From Lasiosphaeris hirsuta (lineage: Eukaryota; Ascomycota; Sordariomycetes; Sordariales; Lasiosphaeriaceae): DNA of 64,000 nt. This document shows positions 29,345 to 59,861 of this stretch, in pieces (the stretch's first letter is position 1; each line of letters starts with the position of its first letter). The DNA is taken from the NCBI GenBank assembly GCA_030549175.1, contig JAUKUA010000001.1, positions 1,178,001 to 1,242,000 of the forward strand. Direction: 5' to 3'. The notes beneath the pieces are model-generated. The model did no database searches. It saw only the letters and a program-made list of their open reading frames with translations, and was not told the DNA's origin. The position numbers were made by a program, and so were the translations under genes.

Positions 29345-29432
29345 TGGGATTAGCAGGAATCGAACCTGCGTCGTCTCAGAACATGTGATCAAACACCACA
29401 ATGAGATATACTAACCACTATACTATAATCCC
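29345..29432 (-). tRNA. tRNA-His (GTG) with a 16-nt anticodon-loop intron
   Basis: The 7-bp acceptor stem GGGATTA/TAATCCC, the D-arm TAGTATAGTGGTTAGTATA, and the T-arm GCAGG-TTCGATT-CCTGC all form. The anticodon stem is TCTCA/TGAGA with loop TTGTGGC, giving anticodon GTG. A 16-nt intron follows position 37, the canonical site cut by the tRNA splicing endonuclease. Mature length without the intron is 72 nt with discriminator A, as in yeast tRNA-His. No G-1 is encoded where it would pair with the discriminator; it is normally added enzymatically. Confidence 0.92.
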
Positions 29433-50419: not shown

Positions 50420-52691
50420 TGTGAATATGACGGGTATCTTTCTCGCTATGGTATCCGTGGCAAGTTGGTGTAAGTGCGGTCCCCTTTTCCAGGCTTGTGA
50501 GTGATAAGAGTGAATGTACGGTATCGGAAGACACTACAGGGTGAGGGTGGACTGGACATGGAAGGGAGGGGAGGGAGGCCCTTTAAAATACATTTCCATC
50601 GCGACTATATAGAGGGGGCTAATACAGCAAATACCGGCTTCAGGGGGAGAATTACACAGCTACATGGCAGCGCCGATGTCCGACCAAGCAATGACGAAAA
50701 TAGAGGAGTACTACCAAGTAACTCATTGGCGGCGAGGTACGCCGATCTGGATGGCCTTTGCGGCTAAAGGGAAGGTGTGGAAGTGGTGTGGTGATGTGGT
50801 GGTGTGGCAGGAGAAGGTGTGCCTTGCAATCGTGGTCCCATAACACACCGTCTATACCTAACACTTGGCGGGCGAGAGGTTGTGGACGGGCCTACGCTAA
50901 CAGGAAGCGAGACACACACACGAAGAGACATACATGGCAGGGAGGAGTTCCCGGTGCAGGGCACAAGATGCAAGACGGCTCCGCACTAGCACAGCCCCGA
51001 GGCGCTTCTCCGGCTCGGCCGACAACAGTTAAGCTTTTCGGGTGATCGCCCCCTGCTCCCTGCGTGAGGTTCGATGTTTCTGGGGGGATGCGATGTCACC
51101 TCTGCACCGCACCCGCATGCGCGTCTGGATATGTTCCTGCATTGGTGGCTGTGGGCTTCAGATAGCGTCCACTCCTGGCACAGGTCGCCGCCCCTGCCGC
51201 CCGCATGTTTCAAGCCCCTCGGACCCCAAGTTGTCTCTCGGCTTACCAGCAGTCTCACGACAGACGTGATCTCAACGACTCGAGAACAGACTACGTAGAT
51301 CGTCATGCGAGAAACCCGGCGTCGAGGGAGCGATATGCCCTCTGATATGCATTGAGAATAACATTGTTGTAATGCAGGCCTAGCCACTCAGCCGGCGGGG
51401 ATTCATGCGTTGACGTAGGGAGGTAGACAATAACCTTGCACCGCATCACCAACAGGTCCTGTTCCTCTCCAGACTCGTGGTTAACACCCTCCCAATAACC
51501 TGGACTGGTTCCGTAGGACTTGAATTGGGGACCCAAAATGAATTGTATCAGGATAGCCCCGAGTTGGTGGCAAATGCCGTACAACTGTGTACGGGGCATC
51601 CAGCAGCGCGCCTGAATCGTCTCAACAAGCCGGGTCTTACTCGAGCGAATAGCTGCCATGTATGGAACGGAATGTCATGGTGATTTCGCGGGGACTGAGT
51701 GATTGCCTCGAATCGCTTCTCGAGCCGCTTCAAGAGAAGTGCCGATGAAGGACGCCAAGTCAGGGCAAATTGAGGCGAGCGACTCAGTTACTCGAGTAGT
51801 GGTGCCTGGGAGCATCCGGCACCGCCGCGACTATGCAGGCGGTAAGCCGCAAAAATAACTGACTCGGGAGGCATAGGTCGATTTCAGATACAAAGGGATG
51901 TAGCTTGAAATATATATGAAGGTGTGCAGGCGCTCCCACCTGCAGTGCGACGCCCGAGCCCGGACAGACGGGAGAGCCAGAGGAAGAATGAGCTTCCCCA
52001 GCGAAACTCGACGTCTAAACTCAGCAATTGGCCTCTCGTCGAAATCATTTTGGTCAATCATGTCGACATGGCTGCCCTTCTGGTTGTAGGCGCGAAGGAC
52101 ACGAGATGAGCTTGTCATCGACCTGCTGAAGATTGTTCTTCGCTGTTGCTGGCACCATCGCCGTGAAGGTAACTAGCTTGGGAGGAGTGGGAGTTGTGGA
52201 GGGAAGAGCCTGGACCGCCAAAAATGCCCAGAGCATCGTTCGTGTTCGTCAGTGTGCTCGGCTCCTGGACTGGCAGCCCAAACCCAGAAGGTGGATGATG
52301 TGGCTTGACATTGGACCAGGCTCCAACGGGCCGGCGTGGCTCAATTACCCCAACTTTGGGCTCCATTGCCGGGACCCTCGGCCCTTGCCGGTGGCAGTGT
52401 CAACACGTTGTCCGACGGCTCGAATCGATGCTGTAACGCTGCTAATGCCCCGTCTTCCCGTTTTGCTTCTCTATTCCCTTAGTTGTCATTTTGCCTTCTG
52501 GTGTTGATATCTCTGTGTGTTCTCTACACGTGCGGGCCCGCGAGAGAGATTAGAGGTTCATTTTCTTTTCTTTGCCCAGTGGTTGCTGAGTTCAGGTTGC
52601 CTCGTCAGGATTTCGAGCGAGAGCTTCGCTTCCTCCCTCCCACTTCGCGCCAGGGCATCACCACCAGTGCCCCTCCGGCCAAGTCACAGGG
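50420..52691. promoter_or_regulatory. Divergent promoter region, wall-protein gene and MFSD10-like gene
   Basis: About 2.3 kb between two starts pointing apart. A CTATATAG element at 50605-50612 lies 186-193 bp upstream of the wall-protein ATG on the minus strand and may be its TATA box. I see no other gene in this stretch. Confidence 0.4.
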
Positions 52692-54202
52692 ATGGCACCA
52701 GTCGATGCCGCAACCCGCAAACGGGTCTTGAAGGTCATCTTCGTCTCTCTGCTGTTAGATTTGGTATGCGCTTCCAATAAGCCCGCTTGCGACCGTTCGT
52801 GGGGTCTCTGAACTTTGACTGACGGGCCTGTCGCAGATCTCCTTCACCTTCATCCTCCCCCTGTTCCCGCAGCTACTCGAGTTCTACCGCAACGTCGAGG
52901 CACCGACCGACGCCTCTGCCCCGCCTACCAAGACGCTGCTCTCCAATCTCTTAGGATACCTCAACACATACAAGGCGGCCTTTGCGCGCCCCATCGATTC
53001 ACGATATGATATTGTACTGCTAGGTGGTGCATTGGGGAGCCTTTTCTCGTGCGTCTTCTCCTTCCTTGTCCCCCTATCTGTCTTGTCTTCACCTAACGAC
53101 CCTCCGCAGCCTCCTCCAAGCCATCGCTTCCCCCATCATCGGACACCTCTCGGACAAGTATGGCCGGCGCACAGCGCTGCTCACGAGCATGGTAGGCAAC
53201 ATCCTGTCGGTGCTCTTGTGGGTTGTGGCCGTCGACTTCCGCACCTTTCTGGCGTCACGCATCGTCGGCGGCCTGTCCGAGGGCAACGTGCAGCTCGCCA
53301 CCGCCATTGCGACCGACATCTCGGACACGAGCAGCCGCGGCTCGACCATGGCTCTGATCGGCGCATGCTTCTCCATCTCCTTCACCTTTGGGCCGGCGCT
53401 GGGCGCCTGGCTCAGCACCATCAGCAGCGTGGCCGCCAACCCGTTTGCCACAGCCGCCGGCGTCTCTCTTTTTCTCATCGTCACCGAGACTGTGTACCTG
53501 TACTTCAACCTGCCCGAAACACTTCCATCGTTGACGAGGGAAAAGACCGCTCCCGGCACCACTACCGCTAAGACACCGGTCGAGACACCGGCCGCGCCTG
53601 TCCAGCGGACCAACTCACACTTCCTCCTTAACCTTGTTCACATGACCTTCCTGCTCTTCTTTTCGGGCATGGAATTCTCACTGCCATTCATGACGTACGA
53701 CTTGTTCGGGTACCGCTCTGCCAACAATGGACGTCTGCTCGGGTATGTAGGTTTGGTCGCTTCGCTGCTACAGGGCGGCGTGACGCGCCGGCTGCCTCCA
53801 TTGCTCTCGGTCCGCATCGGCGTTGTTGCGTGTCTCATCGCCTTTGGTCTGCTCGGCCAGATCTCGACAGTGCCGGCCCTTTATCTGGCTGCAACCTGTT
53901 TAGCTACAACGTCAGCAACTGTCGTTACGGGCTTAAACGCCCTGAGCAGCTTCGAAGCCAACGAGGGCGAGCGCGGCGGGAAGCTGGGCATGCTGCGGAG
54001 CTGGGGTCAGCTCGGAAGAGGACTTGGCCCTGTATTGTTTACCAGTGTATACTGGTGGGCTGGACGCGAGGTGGCGTACGGCATGGGCGCGACGGGCATT
54101 GCGGGAGTGAGTTTATTGGTATTTTTCGGGCTCAAGACGCCTGCGGCGTCTGCGGTAGCTAGTGAGCCGAAGAGTCTGAGAGTGGAGAAGAAGGAGCTAT
54201 AA
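52692..54202 (+). CDS. MFS transporter, MFSD10/TETRAN-like
   Basis: Exons 52692-52763, 52837-53048 and 53110-54202 give 458 residues. Introns are 73 and 61 nt (GTATGC and GTGCGT donors). The first helix is split by intron 1: KVIFVSLLLDLISFTFILPL. Motif A is ASPIIGHLSDKYGRRTALLT, followed by SRIVGGLSEGNVQLATAIAT, typical of the TetA-like branch that includes animal MFSD10. Twelve helices are visible, with a hydrophilic central loop around residue 240 (EKTAPGTTTAKTPVETPAAP). These are proton-coupled exporters of organic ions; the actual substrate here is unknown. The tail EPKSLRVEKKEL is short and charged. Splice sites and frame are exact, so the structure is secure. Confidence 0.9.
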
Positions 54203-54598
54203 AATGGGGCTGGGTTGGATATTGTGTATATGGGACGAGGTGGGTGGTACGATGTTGTATTACATGTGGATGGCCATCTTCAATAAAGTCAAGGTGGCTC
54301 ATATTTTTCTTTGCAGTGATGAATACTTGGTATCAATGACAATACGTACAGGCCCAGTTAATGTAGCAGTTTCACCTAGTGCCTGCCTAGGTAGCTGTGG
54401 TGAAAAGACTGTAGGTGGACATATCTTTGTTTCCCTTTCGCTGTGAGACATGAGCGATGCTGTGATCAACAAACAATCAGTCCCGGTGCTGCCGGTCCGG
54501 TAAACTTCATTTTGGTAATTTCTCTTTGGAGCCATACACCCATTGCTTGTTTGAATGGTCAAGGTGTGCTGGACAAAATGCAATGTGCAAATGGTGCC
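54203..54598. other. Spacer between MFS gene and tRNA-Arg
   Basis: About 400 bp holding the 3'UTR of the transporter. Nothing else is recognisable. Confidence 0.4.
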
Positions 54599-54606
54599 AA
54601 AAAAAA
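54599..54606 (-). terminator. Pol III T8 terminator of tRNA-Arg
   Basis: Eight thymines on the minus strand begin nine bases after the discriminator base of the tRNA-Arg gene. This is a strong RNA polymerase III stop. Confidence 0.8.
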
Positions 54607-54614
54607 TTCCATTG

Positions 54615-54751
54615 CACCCCCGACGGGACTCGAACCCTTATGAGCATTAGCTGTCTGTTTGTGAAGGACAAAGGAGAAAGGGTACTTACCGCAATATCCA
54701 GATGGATCTCCCGATTAGGAGTCTGACGAGTTACCATTTCTCCACGAGGGC
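54615..54751 (-). tRNA. tRNA-Arg (CCT) with a canonical 12-nt intron and a 53-nt insert in the T-arm
   Basis: Reading the minus strand: acceptor GCCCTCG pairs with CGGGGGT (two G-U pairs), the D-arm is GAGAAATGGTAACTC, the anticodon stem TCAGA/TCTGG closes loop CTCCTAA (anticodon CCT), and a 12-nt intron (54715-54704) follows position 37 as in normal nuclear tRNAs. After variable loop ATATT the T-stem starts GCG and is then interrupted by 53 nt (54689-54637) beginning GTAAGT and ending AAG. Removing it gives GCGGG-TTCGAGT-CCCGT, a perfect T-arm, and a mature 72-nt tRNA with discriminator G. The B box GGTTCGAGTCC starts right at the 3' edge of the insert and is unbroken; no T4 run lies inside the gene. 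It may be functional or a pseudogene disabled by the insert. Confidence 0.85.
54637..54689 (-). other. 53-nt spliceosomal-looking insert within the tRNA-Arg T-stem
   Basis: The insert has a consensus donor GTAAGT, a pyrimidine tract, a GCTAATG branch-like site 9 nt before the final AAG, and a length in the range of the pre-mRNA introns of this window (52-75 nt for most). Of the three equivalent registers, only one gives GT...AG ends. The first bases (ACCCTT, 54683-54678) can also pair with AAGGGT at the 3' junction, so cleavage by the tRNA splicing endonuclease at a bulge-helix-bulge is an alternative. Confidence 0.7.
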
Positions 54752-55929
54752 CGTACGCACTGCCGTTACACCATGGGGGATCAGGCAGTGTGTCTCTTTG
54801 TTGAGAAGTCAAGGAATAATTTGCACCCTTAACCCTCAAACGATAGGCAAGTGCGGGCAAGTGCTTTCGCCAGGACGCCCCATACTTCTTGCCTCTCCTG
54901 CTCATGCCGTTGGCACCATACTTCCCGCCCTCCTCGTGGCTTCCGCCCCATCTTTGGCCAAGTGGGTGAGGCTGGTGGTGCCTTCACTTCTTGTCAATGG
55001 TGGGTACTCCACCGTTTCCGTTGCCTCCCGCCGCCAATCTATTGGAGCAAGGTATTGGAACAAGGAAGCTACGCATTGACTTGTTTAGAGTTGTATCTCA
55101 ACGATTCTCAGTTCCTTCACTTTCTGTCTGATTCTTTCTGCCAACAATATGCCTTAATAGAGAGCAATGTGTTCGGCACACGGGTACTTGCCGGATCATC
55201 CCCACTTGATAGCTTTTAGCATTGAAATCAATCCAGTCACCTCGGTCCATCGACATATGCTCGGAGACGGGCATGATGTAGATACCCATGGGGCACAGCC
55301 GAAGAAAGGAATTGCCATTGGGAAGCCTAGCAGCAGCCCTAAATCTTGAAGTATCGAGAAGCCACCAAGAAGGTTTAGCAGGAATACCATTCAGTTCATC
55401 GTCCCACTGTAGGTTCCAACGATTGCTTGTAGGCAGTAAATAAACTTCTGACGGAAATGACTACCGGCAGCTTGGCTACTGCCTATTGGCATGGAGGTTG
55501 GTGCCGAGTTAAGTCAAGCATACTAAGGTGATCAGATCAAATATGTTTCCCAGGCACAAAGAACTGAGACAACATGGTGAGGTCAGGGAGTTGCTGTTGG
55601 AGCACCCCCAATTGCAATTACCGCGGCCCAAATATAGCTCTAATCTGCCATTATATAACATAAAAGAAAGAAGACCAACTAGCACGTCCTGTTCTCGAAG
55701 CCCATCAAGATTTCTCAAGAGCCGTGTTAAGATTGAGCTCAAAGTGATCCCCAATGACAGGAGGAAGGGTTAGGGTTCGGTACTGAAGCTCGGTGTGACT
55801 CTTATCGGAGAAGCTTCTTGATAAAAGCTGCCCCGCCATCAACAGCCCCTCCCGTATGTGGGATCTTACAGCACTCACAAAGTCATCTTATACCGTCAAC
55901 CCAGCAGGCGCCGCGTATCGCATTTCGTC
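54752..55929. other. Intergenic region upstream of VMS1
   Basis: About 1.2 kb with the tRNA 5' flank on the left and the VMS1 promoter on the right. The VMS1 frame stays open for 24 codons upstream of the chosen ATG without another ATG. I see no other gene. Confidence 0.4.
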
Positions 55930-57927
55930 ATGGAGAAGAAACAGGAGAAGCAAGAAAAACCGGAGGAGGCGGTGCGGCGCCCGCTTTACCTCTACGACCT
56001 CCCAGCCGAGGTTCTCAACTCGCTATCTCTCAAGGCGGACGCGGGGTCGCCTGAGCAGCTGTCTGAGCAGCTGTCGCCAGAAACGACACCTACTCAGTTG
56101 CAAAGCCCAGGCCCCGCCACCCCTGATAGCAGCTTCGTTGGCTCGCAAGCGTGCTCCCTCTGTAGCTTGACGTTTGTTACTGTTCAAGAGCAGCGAGACC
56201 ATCTTAAGACCGATCTCCACCATTACAACCTCAAGCAAAAGCTCAATGACCTCAACCCCGTGACCGAAAGCCAATTCGAGAAGCTTGTTGGAGACTTGGA
56301 TGAAAGTCTCTCGGGGTCTGACACATCCGGTAGCGAAGATGAAGAGGGGGACGGCACTTCGCGCAAGGACACGACCCTTTCTGCCCTGCTGAAAAAGCAG
56401 GCCACTCTGGCCGACAGGCAACGTAATCCCGGCAATGAAGCAGGCGAGAAAAGCTCGAAAAACCCACGGGGGACGGGGAAACCCCCCCTGCTTTGGTTCA
56501 GCTCGCCTACCTTACCGGACAAGACATATTATGGCGTCTACCGGGCGATTTTTACGCCCGAGGAGCTAGCAAGAGAGGATGTTATCGTTGAGGCCATCAA
56601 GCAGAGGCAGCTAGCCCCCATATTGATGCCAAAGCCCCCAAAAGACGTGAGCTCTGTGCCCCCAGCGTATAACGGTCGCCATATTTTTCTTTGCATGATC
56701 GGAGGCGGTCATTTCGCCGCCATGGTCGTCTCCCTCGCTCCCAAACAGAGCAAACACGCCTCAACGGGCCCCATGAACAGGGAAGCCATTGTCCTAGCTC
56801 ACAAAACCTTCCACCGATACACGACCAGGCGGAAGCAAGGTGGTTCGCAGTCTGCCAATGATAACGCGAAGGGAACGGCACATTCTGCCGGCTCTTCCCT
56901 TCGCCGCTACAACGAACAGGCACTCGTCGAAGACGTCCGCGAACTTCTAAGGGACTGGAAAGCTCTCATCGACACGTCTGATCTCCTCTTCATCCGTGCG
57001 ACAGGAACAACAAACAGACGCACTCTGTTTGGCCCCTACGATGGCCAAGTCATGCGCGGAAACGATCCTCGTATGCGAGGTTTCCCGTTCAGCACACGCA
57101 GAGCGACACAAAACGAGCTCATGCGTTCCTTCATCGAACTGACACGACTCAAGGTGAAGGAACTTACTGTCGCCGTACCCCTTCCCATCGCCACAGAAGA
57201 TACCACCACCAAACAAAAAGCTCCCGTGAAACCAGGTGTGCCCAAACTATCGGAGGAGGAAGAGACCGCCCTCCACCACACCACCCAAATTCAAGCCCTC
57301 ATCCGCCGTTCCAAACTACCCGCCCTCCTCGCCTACCTCAAAACCTCGAGTCTAGACCCTAACACCTTCCGTTTCTACCCGTCAGACTCGCAGCAGAACC
57401 ACCACGCACCCACGGCGCTCCACCTCGCCGCAGCCCAGAACTCGGCTCCGCTCGTCGCGGGTCTCCTCGCCCGCGGGGGCGCCGACCCGACGCTTCGCAA
57501 TGACGAAGCCAAGACACCGTTCGAGATTGCCGGTGACCGTGCTACGCGTGACGCCTTTCGGGTGGCACGCGCCGAGCTAGGCGAAGCGGCGTGGGACTGG
57601 GAGGAGGCGGCGGTACCGCCCGCGCTGAAGCGCGAGGAGGCGGAGAAGCGGGCAGAGCGGGAGAGGAAGGAGAAGGAGAAAGAGGAGAAGGAGAGGTGGA
57701 GAGTAGAAGAGGAGAAGCTGAAGAGGGAAGGGCCGAAGGTGAAGACGAGCACAGCGAGGGCGGGGGCTGCGGGTGGGATCTTGGGGGGTGGCGTGCCGAG
57801 GTCGGCGCAGGAAAAGAGAGAAGAGGAGGCCAGAGGCTTGACGCCTGAGCAGAGGATGCGGTTGGATCGAGAGCGGAGGGCAAGGGCGGCGGAGGAGAGG
57901 ATGCGGAAGTTACAGGGGGGTGGATAA
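55930..57927 (+). CDS. VMS1: Vms1/ANKZF1 peptidyl-tRNA hydrolase of ribosome quality control
   Basis: Single exon, 665 residues from MEKKQEKQEK. A C2H2 finger lies at Cys75, Cys78, His91 and His97 (ACSLCSLTFVTVQEQRDHLK). The VLRF1 domain follows: RHIFLCMIGGGHFAAMVVSL, KTFHRYTTRRKQGGSQSAND, in which the Gln of Gly-Gly-Ser-Gln matches the catalytic Gln of yeast Vms1, then LLFIRATGTTNRRTLFG. Ankyrin repeats (TALHLAAAQNSAPLVAGLLA) and a charged coiled coil (REEAEKRAERERKEKEKEEK) come next. The final VCP-interacting segment is EEEARGLTPEQRMRLDRERR. The protein releases stalled nascent chains from 60S-peptidyl-tRNA at ribosomes and mitochondria and binds Cdc48. All domains are intact and in the normal order. 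Confidence 0.95.
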   Translation: MEKKQEKQEKPEEAVRRPLYLYDLPAEVLNSLSLKADAGSPEQLSEQLSPETTPTQLQSPGPATPDSSFVGSQACSLCSLTFVTVQEQRDHLKTDLHHYNLKQKLNDLNPVTESQFEKLVGDLDESLSGSDTSGSEDEEGDGTSRKDTTLSALLKKQATLADRQRNPGNEAGEKSSKNPRGTGKPPLLWFSSPTLPDKTYYGVYRAIFTPEELAREDVIVEAIKQRQLAPILMPKPPKDVSSVPPAYNGRHIFLCMIGGGHFAAMVVSLAPKQSKHASTGPMNREAIVLAHKTFHRYTTRRKQGGSQSANDNAKGTAHSAGSSLRRYNEQALVEDVRELLRDWKALIDTSDLLFIRATGTTNRRTLFGPYDGQVMRGNDPRMRGFPFSTRRATQNELMRSFIELTRLKVKELTVAVPLPIATEDTTTKQKAPVKPGVPKLSEEEETALHHTTQIQALIRRSKLPALLAYLKTSSLDPNTFRFYPSDSQQNHHAPTALHLAAAQNSAPLVAGLLARGGADPTLRNDEAKTPFEIAGDRATRDAFRVARAELGEAAWDWEEAAVPPALKREEAEKRAERERKEKEKEEKERWRVEEEKLKREGPKVKTSTARAGAAGGILGGGVPRSAQEKREEEARGLTPEQRMRLDRERRARAAEERMRKLQGGG

Positions 57928-58203
57928 GAGAGAAAACCGGTAGTGTGGTGTTTGGTGTAGAAGCACTTATAGAGATGCCGGACGAATCGACGAATGTTGT
58001 TTAGGTTGACATGAACTTGACAACAAGGGAATAGAATGGTACTCCCAGAACGTGGCTTTGGGCAGAGAACCAGCTTACTGACCGATGGTATTGCAAGCCG
58101 CCTGGCTAAGCGCCGTGGGAAGCAACCGAATCTGGCTCAACCATCAGACACCATTACTACCCCTGAGTAATGTCCAAATGTGCATTGTATGTTGATTCGA
58201 CCT

Positions 58204-59861
58204 CTACCTGCTACTGCCTCCCAAAACCTCCATCACAGCGCCGGCAGCAGCAAGTAGCCGTGCATCGTCCCAGTATTGCCCGATCAACTGCAGCCCAGCC
58301 GTGTTCGCCACGTCTTTATGACCGCCCTCGGCAGCAACTCGCACTGGGATACTCACAGCCGGTAGTCCAGCGAGGCTCGCTGGCACAGTAAACACATCAT
58401 TCACATATGCATTTACAGGGCTCTGCCCCTCCGCCCCGACGACGTCCTCCAGCTTAGGCGCGAGGGTCGGCGCCGTGGGACACAGCAGGAAGTCGACACC
58501 GACTGGCCCGAGCTTGTTCTCCATCAGGATATCCTCGGACAGGTCACTGAGGTCGAACGGCTCAGGCTCGCCCTGCAGGGGGTTGGCAAGCGCAAAGGCG
58601 CGGTCGAAGTCGCGCCGGACGAGGCGCCGGATCTTTTGCGCTTTGATAAAATAGTTGTCCATGGCTTCGGAGCTGAGCGTGTATGCGCCAAGGAGGATGC
58701 GGCGCTGGACTTCGCTGCCAAAGCTGCGGCCACGACTGGCGGCGTAGAGTACGCCGCCGTCGGCTGCGTCGCTCGATCCCGCGTCGGTGTCACTGGCCCG
58801 CGAGCCGTAACGGACGCCGTCGTACTTGGCCAGGTTAGAGGAGGCCTCGGCAGGGGCGATGATGTAGTACGCGGAGAGGGCGTGGCGGGTCGTAGGCAGA
58901 GAAACAGGAACGATTCGGGCCCCGAGCTTCTGGAGGGCTGCTGCCGCGGCGGCCCATGCATCGCGGATCCGGGGATCGAGTTCCTCGACGTTATACTCCA
59001 ACGGAATGCCGAACTTCAGCCCCCTTAGCACCTCCTCCGGCTTTCCCCCGTCCACCCCGGCATACCCCTTCCTTACACTCGCACACCTCGCCCTCGCCGC
59101 CTCCGACAAGCTCGTCGGATCCCTCGGGTCATGCTCCAACCACAACCCGCCGCCCACAACCAGCTCCCGAATCTCCTTGACCCCCCGCGCCAACAACCCC
59201 ACCGTATCTAGCGAGTTCGCATACGGCACCACGCCGTGCCGCGACAGCATCCCATACGACGGCTTGAACCCCACGACCCCGGTATACGCCGCGGGCAGGC
59301 GCACCGATCCACCGGTATCAGTGCCCAGCGCGACATCGGCCTCGCCGGCAGCGACGGCGACCGCACTGCCGCCCGAGCTCCCGCCGGCCGAGTACTCCTC
59401 ACCCCCCTCGTTGGGGAGGGTCTGCGACACGGCGCCGAAGGCCGAGTGCGTCGAGTGGCTGCCCATGCCGAACTCGTCCAGGTTGGTCTTGCCGACGAGG
59501 CAGGCGCCCCGCGAGCGCAGCTGGGTGACGATGGTCGCCTCGAAGGGGCTGTGGTAGGCGTTGAGGAAGGAGGAGGCGCATGTCGTGGGGAGGGACTGCG
59601 TGGCGATGTTGTCCTTGACGGCGAGGGTGAAGGGGGGGAACGGGGGTTGTGTATCTGGCGTGTCGTCTTGGAGCGGAGCTGGGAAAAGAAAAGTTAGCAA
59701 AGGGAGGATTGGTGATGGGGGCAGTGGGGGGGTCAAGATGTCGTGCCTTTGGAGATGAACTGGTTCAGCAGCCGGCGCTGCTGGTGCGAGGTCGCAGCAT
59801 GGCGTCTCTTGGAGCTCACATGGCGCAGACACAGGCCTTGAAGCCTGGACCTGGTTGACAT
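58204..59861 (-). CDS. Glutamyl-tRNA(Gln) amidotransferase subunit A, mitochondrial
   Basis: Two exons, 59861-59747 and 59678-58204, give 529 residues. Exon 1 encodes a basic N-terminus (MSTRSRLQGLCLRHVSSKRR) fit for mitochondrial import and ends ...LLNQFISK. The 68-nt intron has a GC donor (AAAG/GCACGA), a TTGCTAAC branch site and TTTTCCCAG acceptor; the joined frame is exact. Amidase-signature residues are all present: Lys60 in AVKDNIAT, cis-Ser139 in GGSSGGSAVAVAAG and the nucleophile Ser163 in DTGGSVRLPAAY, with the 24-residue spacing between the two serines that is normal for GatA. The enzyme supplies ammonia to convert Glu-tRNA(Gln) to Gln-tRNA(Gln) in mitochondria, as yeast Her2. Without the intron the frame would start at a second ATG and lose the presequence. 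Convergent with VMS1. Confidence 0.93.

Follow-up and report, generated by a model that had tools for sequence, protein, structure and literature searches.

A minus-strand tRNA locus in the nuclear genome of Lasiosphaeris hirsuta carries a 53-nt insert in its T stem. The insert has the signals of an mRNA intron, fits the stem exactly and, when taken out together with a 12-nt anticodon intron, leaves an intact cloverleaf. The explanation that best accommodates these observations, to which we give close to an even chance, is that of a divergent nuclear CCU tRNA gene with an mRNA-type intron, which the spliceosome would remove from a Pol III transcript.

The genome comprises 44.4 Mb in 14 contigs, and the window, the stretch of 64,000 nucleotides analysed here, is C1:1178001-1242000. 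Within it, the tRNA at 54751-54615 was matched by Rfam RF00005 (33.5 bits; cut-off 29). Its recognisable neighbours lie on the plus strand, an MFS-like frame ending at 54202 and a VLRF1-domain (PF18826) gene with a frame from 55825. The closest protein relative of the 55918-57924 product is 92% identical and comes from Lasiosphaeria hispida (Sordariales, Lasiosphaeriaceae). The other Rfam tRNA of the window is an ordinary tRNA-His(GUG) at 29345-29432 on the minus strand, with a 16-nt anticodon intron. The parts of the locus are as follows.

54615..54751, minus strand: whole tRNA gene including mature ends (RF00005, 33.5 bits)
54716..54751, minus strand: exon 1, with the acceptor 5' strand, D arm and anticodon arm to base 37, anticodon CCU (from sequence, ARAGORN and pairing comparison)
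54704..54715, minus strand: 12-nt anticodon intron at the canonical 37/38 site, ATCGGGAGATCC, its GGGAG able to pair with CUCCU (ARAGORN and Rfam alternative: variable arm)
54690..54703, minus strand: rest of exon 1, with base 38, anticodon-stem 3' strand, variable loop and T-stem bases 49-51 (GCG)
54637..54689, minus strand: 53-nt T-stem insert with mRNA-type signals GTAAGT, CTAAT (54650-54646) and AAG
54615..54636, minus strand: exon 2, with T-stem bases 52-53, T loop, acceptor 3' strand and discriminator G
54626..54636, minus strand: B box GGTTCGAGTCC, intact
54599..54606, minus strand: T8, Pol III terminator-like
54763..54773, minus strand: upstream consensus A box TGGTGTAACGG, within a half-tRNA-like stretch at 54780-54752
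54799..54804, minus strand: TCAACA, a start-site-like motif

The spliced cloverleaf and the T-stem insert

Without the 53 nt (54689-54637) and the 12-nt anticodon intron, the gene folds into a cloverleaf of 72 nt with 20 of 21 stem pairs and all four scored invariant positions (4/4), so that the complete cloverleaf described in an earlier note on this DNA is confirmed. The same note had called the T arm perfect after removal of the insert. The stem is indeed restored, but the word was slightly too strong, as pair 49-65 is G-U; the other imperfect position of the spliced form is an A.A at 13.22. ARAGORN made no call in the 137-mer and reported tRNA-Arg(cct) once the 53 nt had been removed. Its drawing of the resulting 84-mer replaces the 12-nt intron by a small variable arm and contains an A.G mismatch within the anticodon stem, which the Rfam model pairs in the same way. 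The 12-nt anticodon intron is preferred here because all five anticodon-stem pairs then form (one of them U-G) and because TCTGGATATTGCG then aligns with TCTGAATGTTGCG of tRNA-Lys(UUU). The intron had been described as normal, which holds for its place at 37/38 in the preferred reading. Nevertheless, its form is odd: judged by eye, pairing of GGGAG with CUCCU leaves a 3' bulge of 5 nt, compared with 3 nt in tRNA-Lys L052. The pair between base 32 and intron position -3, present in 29 of 45 introns (by reading, since ARAGORN misplaces some), is absent, as it also is in both canonical Arg(CCU) genes. Of the 29 intact tRNAs in the B-box sample L094-L173, 24 have an anticodon-loop intron according to ARAGORN; both the length and the sequence of these introns differ among genes that share an anticodon, for example Glu(CUC) and Ser(GCU).

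ARAGORN is permissive towards deletions. At the window locus a tRNA is called after any of 966 different single deletions, and 19 of 52 B-box sites that are not intact, this locus included, yield at least one call after a single deletion. When every single deletion of 8-110 nt in a stretch of 201 nt was scanned, 1022 calls resulted, and of the 40 commonest kinds listed 36 were Arg(cct) starting at 54751. As Arg(cct) is called over many deletion lengths, ARAGORN does not fix the 53 nt. A stricter search was scored on stem pairs and the four invariant positions, with an insert of 20-100 nt allowed at any place in the T stem, a variable loop of 4-6, a D loop of 7-10 and an anticodon intron of 0 or 6-40 nt. 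The window locus reached a score of 24, and both solutions shown have an insert of 53 nt; without a T-stem insert its best score is 20, with 2/5 pairs in the anticodon stem and 4/5 in the T stem. Shuffling the letters of the 5' part at 81 sites gave a maximum of 22 (0/486 shuffles reach 24). Any solution at all was obtained for 16 of the 81 B-box sites, and among the 80 others the best site that is neither tRNA-like nor ARAGORN-positive scored 20.

Two kinds of locus equal or exceed the 24 of the window locus. Three tRNA-Ser genes score 24 because their variable arm is counted as an insert, and a pair of tRNA-like twins, L116 and L169, reaches 25 with a T-stem insert of 44 nt that lacks GT-AG. 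A plain 52-nt anticodon intron explains the twins nearly as well (score 23). A T-stem insert by itself therefore does not set the window locus apart under this score. Among the solutions printed, the insert of the window locus is the only one with splice signals. Taken as whole 321-nt stretches, L116 and L169 are tRNA-Asn(GUU)-like, show paired differences in the acceptor stem and have about 52 extra nt.

The insert, GTAAGTACCCTTTCTCCTTTGTCCTTCACAAACAGACAGCTAATGCTCATAAG, starts with the 5' site GTAAGT, has a branch-like CTAAT within GCTAATG and ends in CATAAG. Pyrimidines make up 22 of the 32 letters between the 5' site and the branch, TTTT is absent and both boundaries may be shifted by one base (G). 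In coordinates, strand, GTAAGT, pyrimidine tract, GCTAATG and AAG the insert is as first described, and so are the intact B box at 54636-54626, the lack of TTTT and the T8 behind the gene at 54606-54599.

The insert was compared with 56 candidate introns of the same genome, drawn from 241,293 bases (59 records). Each had a GTRNG(A/C/T) start, a CTRAY with 6-30 nt from its A to the first AG and a length of 44-110 nt, and had to connect open frames of 40 codons or more on either side, with 150 or more in sum; by this construction the set is biased to consensus and may hold false members. Their lengths run from 44 to 106 nt with a median of 58.5, so the view that 53 nt is close to the introns of protein genes is borne out. 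GTAAGT is found in 7 of the 56, CTAAT in 8 and AAG in 12, and the distance from the branch A to the 3' end is 7-22 nt, compared with 10 nt in the insert. The insert thus has the features tested for a U2-type intron, namely GT...AG ends with a species-like 5' site, a CTRAY branch near the 3' end and a suitable length. The combination of GTRNGT, CTRAY in place and AG occurs in 3 of the 127,894 53-mers of the window (both strands, insert included), 2 of them with GTAAGT. The chance of such signals at the insert, allowing for two registers, is roughly 1e-5 to 1e-4. Moreover, the boundaries derived from the structure coincide with the GT...AG ends within the one-base slide, and CTAAT stands at a normal distance. 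The stability of the unspliced RNA is not out of the ordinary (z -1.26).

Searches of the genome recovered the insert once only, at up to 3 mismatches as well as in a DNA search to E 10, from which one candidate was taken past a first look. The 137-mer matched itself alone in a DNA search of the genome (E 0.001). A tRNA-derived, SINE-like repeat was accordingly rejected, as the 137-mer and the insert are each single-copy. With no near copy in the genome, the insert does not resemble a fresh insertion with a living donor, although the donor may have been lost. The T stem and B box are nevertheless intact.

The tRNA body, its relatives and its promoter

The spliced 72-mer shares 55/72 bases with tRNA-Lys(UUU), with a 2-nt gap in the D loop, 52/72 with tRNA-Arg(UCU) L012, ungapped, and 46/72 with tRNA-Arg(CCU) L077. 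Its body is mixed, the anticodon stem and variable loop being Lys-like and the acceptor and D loop Arg-like. Relative to tRNA-Lys(UUU) there are 13 stem substitutions, with 20/21 pairs kept and 4 pairs changed on both sides; relative to L012 there are 17, with 6 pairs changed on both sides. The simulated P values, 2e-5 and 1e-5, respectively, flatter the case, as the simulation assumes random substitution and the boundaries were chosen with knowledge of the fold. The stems hold against each of six reference tRNAs tried. This pairing indicates that the tRNA was maintained by selection through much of its past, and says nothing about the age of the insert. An origin from tRNA-Lys(UUU) was favoured at first and is not firm, for L012, with its intron set at 37/38, shares its 52/72 bases without a gap. 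The intron of L012, a gene read here as Arg(UCU), had been put in the wrong place by ARAGORN. According to the available part of one study, tRNAs whose anticodon and body disagree are probably not functional, though not automatically pseudogenes (PMC8450103).

Two canonical tRNA-Arg(CCU) genes were found elsewhere in the genome, L077 at C1:7587848-7587932 with a 13-nt intron (L085 is the same gene) and L090 on C9 near 578143 with an 11-nt intron. A third CCU variant, L126 (C7:3885047-3885367), has an Arg(CCG)-like body and, by ARAGORN, one acceptor mismatch. L077 and L090 resemble the window gene in their CCU anticodon, discriminator G and 37/38 intron. Unlike it, they have an uninterrupted T stem, and the likeness of L077 stops at 46 of 72 bases. 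With other intact Arg(CCU) genes present, AGG can be decoded even if the window gene is not spliced, and the suggestion that it might be the sole gene of its kind no longer stands. Their presence is one half of what the earlier note had named as a refutation, the other half being the lack of a spliced product from this locus.

The pattern AACNCGNNNNACTCCTAA with one mismatch has 30 matches in the genome, compared with 80 for the reversed pattern, and at none of the seven other places examined from it did ARAGORN find a tRNA. Four of these seven, L044, L045, L046 and L047, are dispersed copies of one repeat and look like pieces of transposon-encoded protein. The RF00005 search of the genome listed 63 matches and missed intron-bearing tRNAs, so the tRNA counts given here are lower bounds. 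On different contigs, L149 and L162 contain similar tRNA-like stretches, AACTTAGGT...CCTAAG, which may form a small family derived from tRNA.

The gene's own A box reads TGGAGAAATGG. The A at its fourth place (A11) is found in 0/85 distinct tRNAs with flanks, and 79 of the 85 match the A-box consensus used here. A run of at least four T lies within 40 nt behind 73 of these 85 tRNAs. The sole consensus A box on the minus strand in 54811-54600 is the upstream one at 54773-54763, the rate in the window being 0.30 matches per kb of strand; as a guess, it might serve the window gene. TCAACA, which we take to be a marker of transcription start, occurs within 60 nt upstream of 18 of the 85 tRNAs, 6-32 nt before the mature end. 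At this locus it stands 53 nt before the mature end and 24 nt before the half-tRNA-like stretch. This stretch, TCCCCCATGGTGTAACGGCAGTGCGTACG (54780-54752, minus strand), lies directly before the tRNA, and 12 nt of it, ATGGTGTAACGG, equal those in tRNA-Glu(CUC) genes. Its reading as a duplicated tRNA 5' half was rejected, as the likeness is not above that of shuffles (38/200 reach it).

Proposed removal of the insert

In the explanation preferred here, a spliceosomal (U2-type) intron would have entered the T stem of a tRNA gene, and the Pol III transcript of this gene would carry two introns of different kinds. The small intron at 37/38 would go to the tRNA endonuclease and ligase, while the 53-nt intron would go to the spliceosome, its removal restoring the T arm. 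From the sequence we infer Pol III transcription, splicing, charging and use of the tRNA. It is a tentative proposition, which we place a little short of an even chance, that one precursor is processed at 37/38 by the endonuclease and in the T stem by the spliceosome, two machines with no relation to each other, and that the tRNA thereby depends on mRNA splicing. Several observations weigh against spliceosomal removal. The gene is redundant, given L077, L090 and the variant L126; its own A box carries an A11 without counterpart among the 85 tRNAs, its anticodon intron has the 5-nt 3' bulge and lacks the 32/-3 pair, and its body is a Lys/Arg mixture (cf. the available part of PMC8450103). In addition, L116 and L169 accommodate a T-stem insert without GT-AG, and the pairing was scored on fold-informed boundaries. 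U6, another Pol III RNA, has no intron here: all four matches in the genome (4/4) span the whole model in 106-108 nt. With 0/4 matches interrupted, U6 introns were dropped as a precedent within this genome.

Some of the same observations would suit a retired copy: a formerly functional gene that acquired an intron-like sequence and has ceased to yield tRNA, its Arg(CCU) counterparts elsewhere in the genome being sufficient. Such a sequence might, for example, have arrived through reverse splicing and then reverse transcription, or have been copied from a protein gene. This possibility, which we regard as a serious if less probable one, draws on the presence of those other genes, the off-consensus A box, the odd anticodon intron and the mixed body. 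Nevertheless, 20/21 pairs and the four scored invariant positions remain, the terminator-like T8 and the B box are intact, and as the donor of the insert is unrecognised, time may have passed without visible decay. Since the insert is intron-like and the stems look selected, spliceosomal removal is favoured over a long-dead copy. It is unlikely that the insert is instead spliced from a Pol II transcript crossing the locus, with the tRNA as a relic within it. The signals are of the mRNA-intron type, and a 158-codon stop-to-stop frame on the same strand (54983-54507) spans the locus. However, no adjacent minus-strand protein gene was recognised in the frame list for 50500-58500, a list made without splice-aware prediction; the real-looking neighbours are both on the plus strand, and an intron placed by chance would have to heal the T stem.

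Removal by the tRNA splicing endonuclease as a second, ectopic intron, as in Cyanidioschyzon or Crenarchaeota, seems more doubtful still. Such introns exist in red algae and archaea, as the accessible portion of PMC3978253 describes. At the T-stem junction the strict bulge-helix-bulge central helix has 2/4 and 0/4 pairs in the two registers, a weak test that discriminates poorly, as the gene's ordinary anticodon intron itself scores 2/4 (3/4 one base off). Moreover, endonuclease cleavage would leave GTAAGT, CTAAT and AG unexplained, and the yeast enzyme is confined to 37/38 according to the part of a review available (PMC4033280). Least probable of all is a tRNA-like element with no second intron and an odd long variable region, in the fold of the Rfam model. 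Rfam does align the locus in that fold at 33.5 bits, whereas without the T-stem insert the best score drops from 24 to 20, with 2/5 anticodon-stem and 4/5 T-stem pairs. The earlier note had left three options, spliceosome, endonuclease or dead copy. The intron-like nature of the insert has been strengthened since, endonuclease removal has been weakened to a minor possibility, and a long-dead copy is less favoured.

Precedents and possible consequences of splicing

Being a part of the spliceosome, U6 has a reverse-splicing route open to it for intron gain. The U6 snRNA gene of fission yeast has an mRNA-type intron in a Pol III transcript, removed by the spliceosome (PMC8917221, in the part available). 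It shares with the window gene that a fungal Pol III transcript contains an mRNA-type intron. A tRNA, unlike U6, is not part of the spliceosome, and removal of the window insert is a prediction. Spliceosomal introns in the rDNA of lichen fungi are a further parallel; one of 57 bp from Cladonia grayi was removed by yeast from a Pol I transcript, as the accessible text of PMC8527467 reports. These are likewise short, mRNA-type and situated in an ascomycete structural RNA gene, but they concern ribosomal RNA and Pol I rather than tRNA and Pol III. The ectopic tRNA introns of Cyanidioschyzon and Crenarchaeota lie away from 37/38, the T arm included (PMC3978253, in its accessible portion). They share with the insert a non-37/38 position, which may be in the T arm, and a nuclear or archaeal tRNA gene as host. 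Their junctions are mostly bulge-helix-bulge, in contrast to the window insert, where none was found by the weak test and GT-AG is present instead. In the literature covered, partly accessible and with most subscription papers and all preprints outside its scope, these red-algal and archaeal introns were found, and no spliceosomal intron in a nuclear tRNA gene.

tRNA finders that allow introns in the anticodon loop only can miss genes of this kind; ARAGORN is silent at this locus, where the Rfam model is positive. If the insert is spliced, a Pol III tRNA precursor can be a substrate of the spliceosome. A tRNA would then be tied to mRNA splicing, and the gene would be a natural case in which to test the ways by which introns enter structured RNAs.
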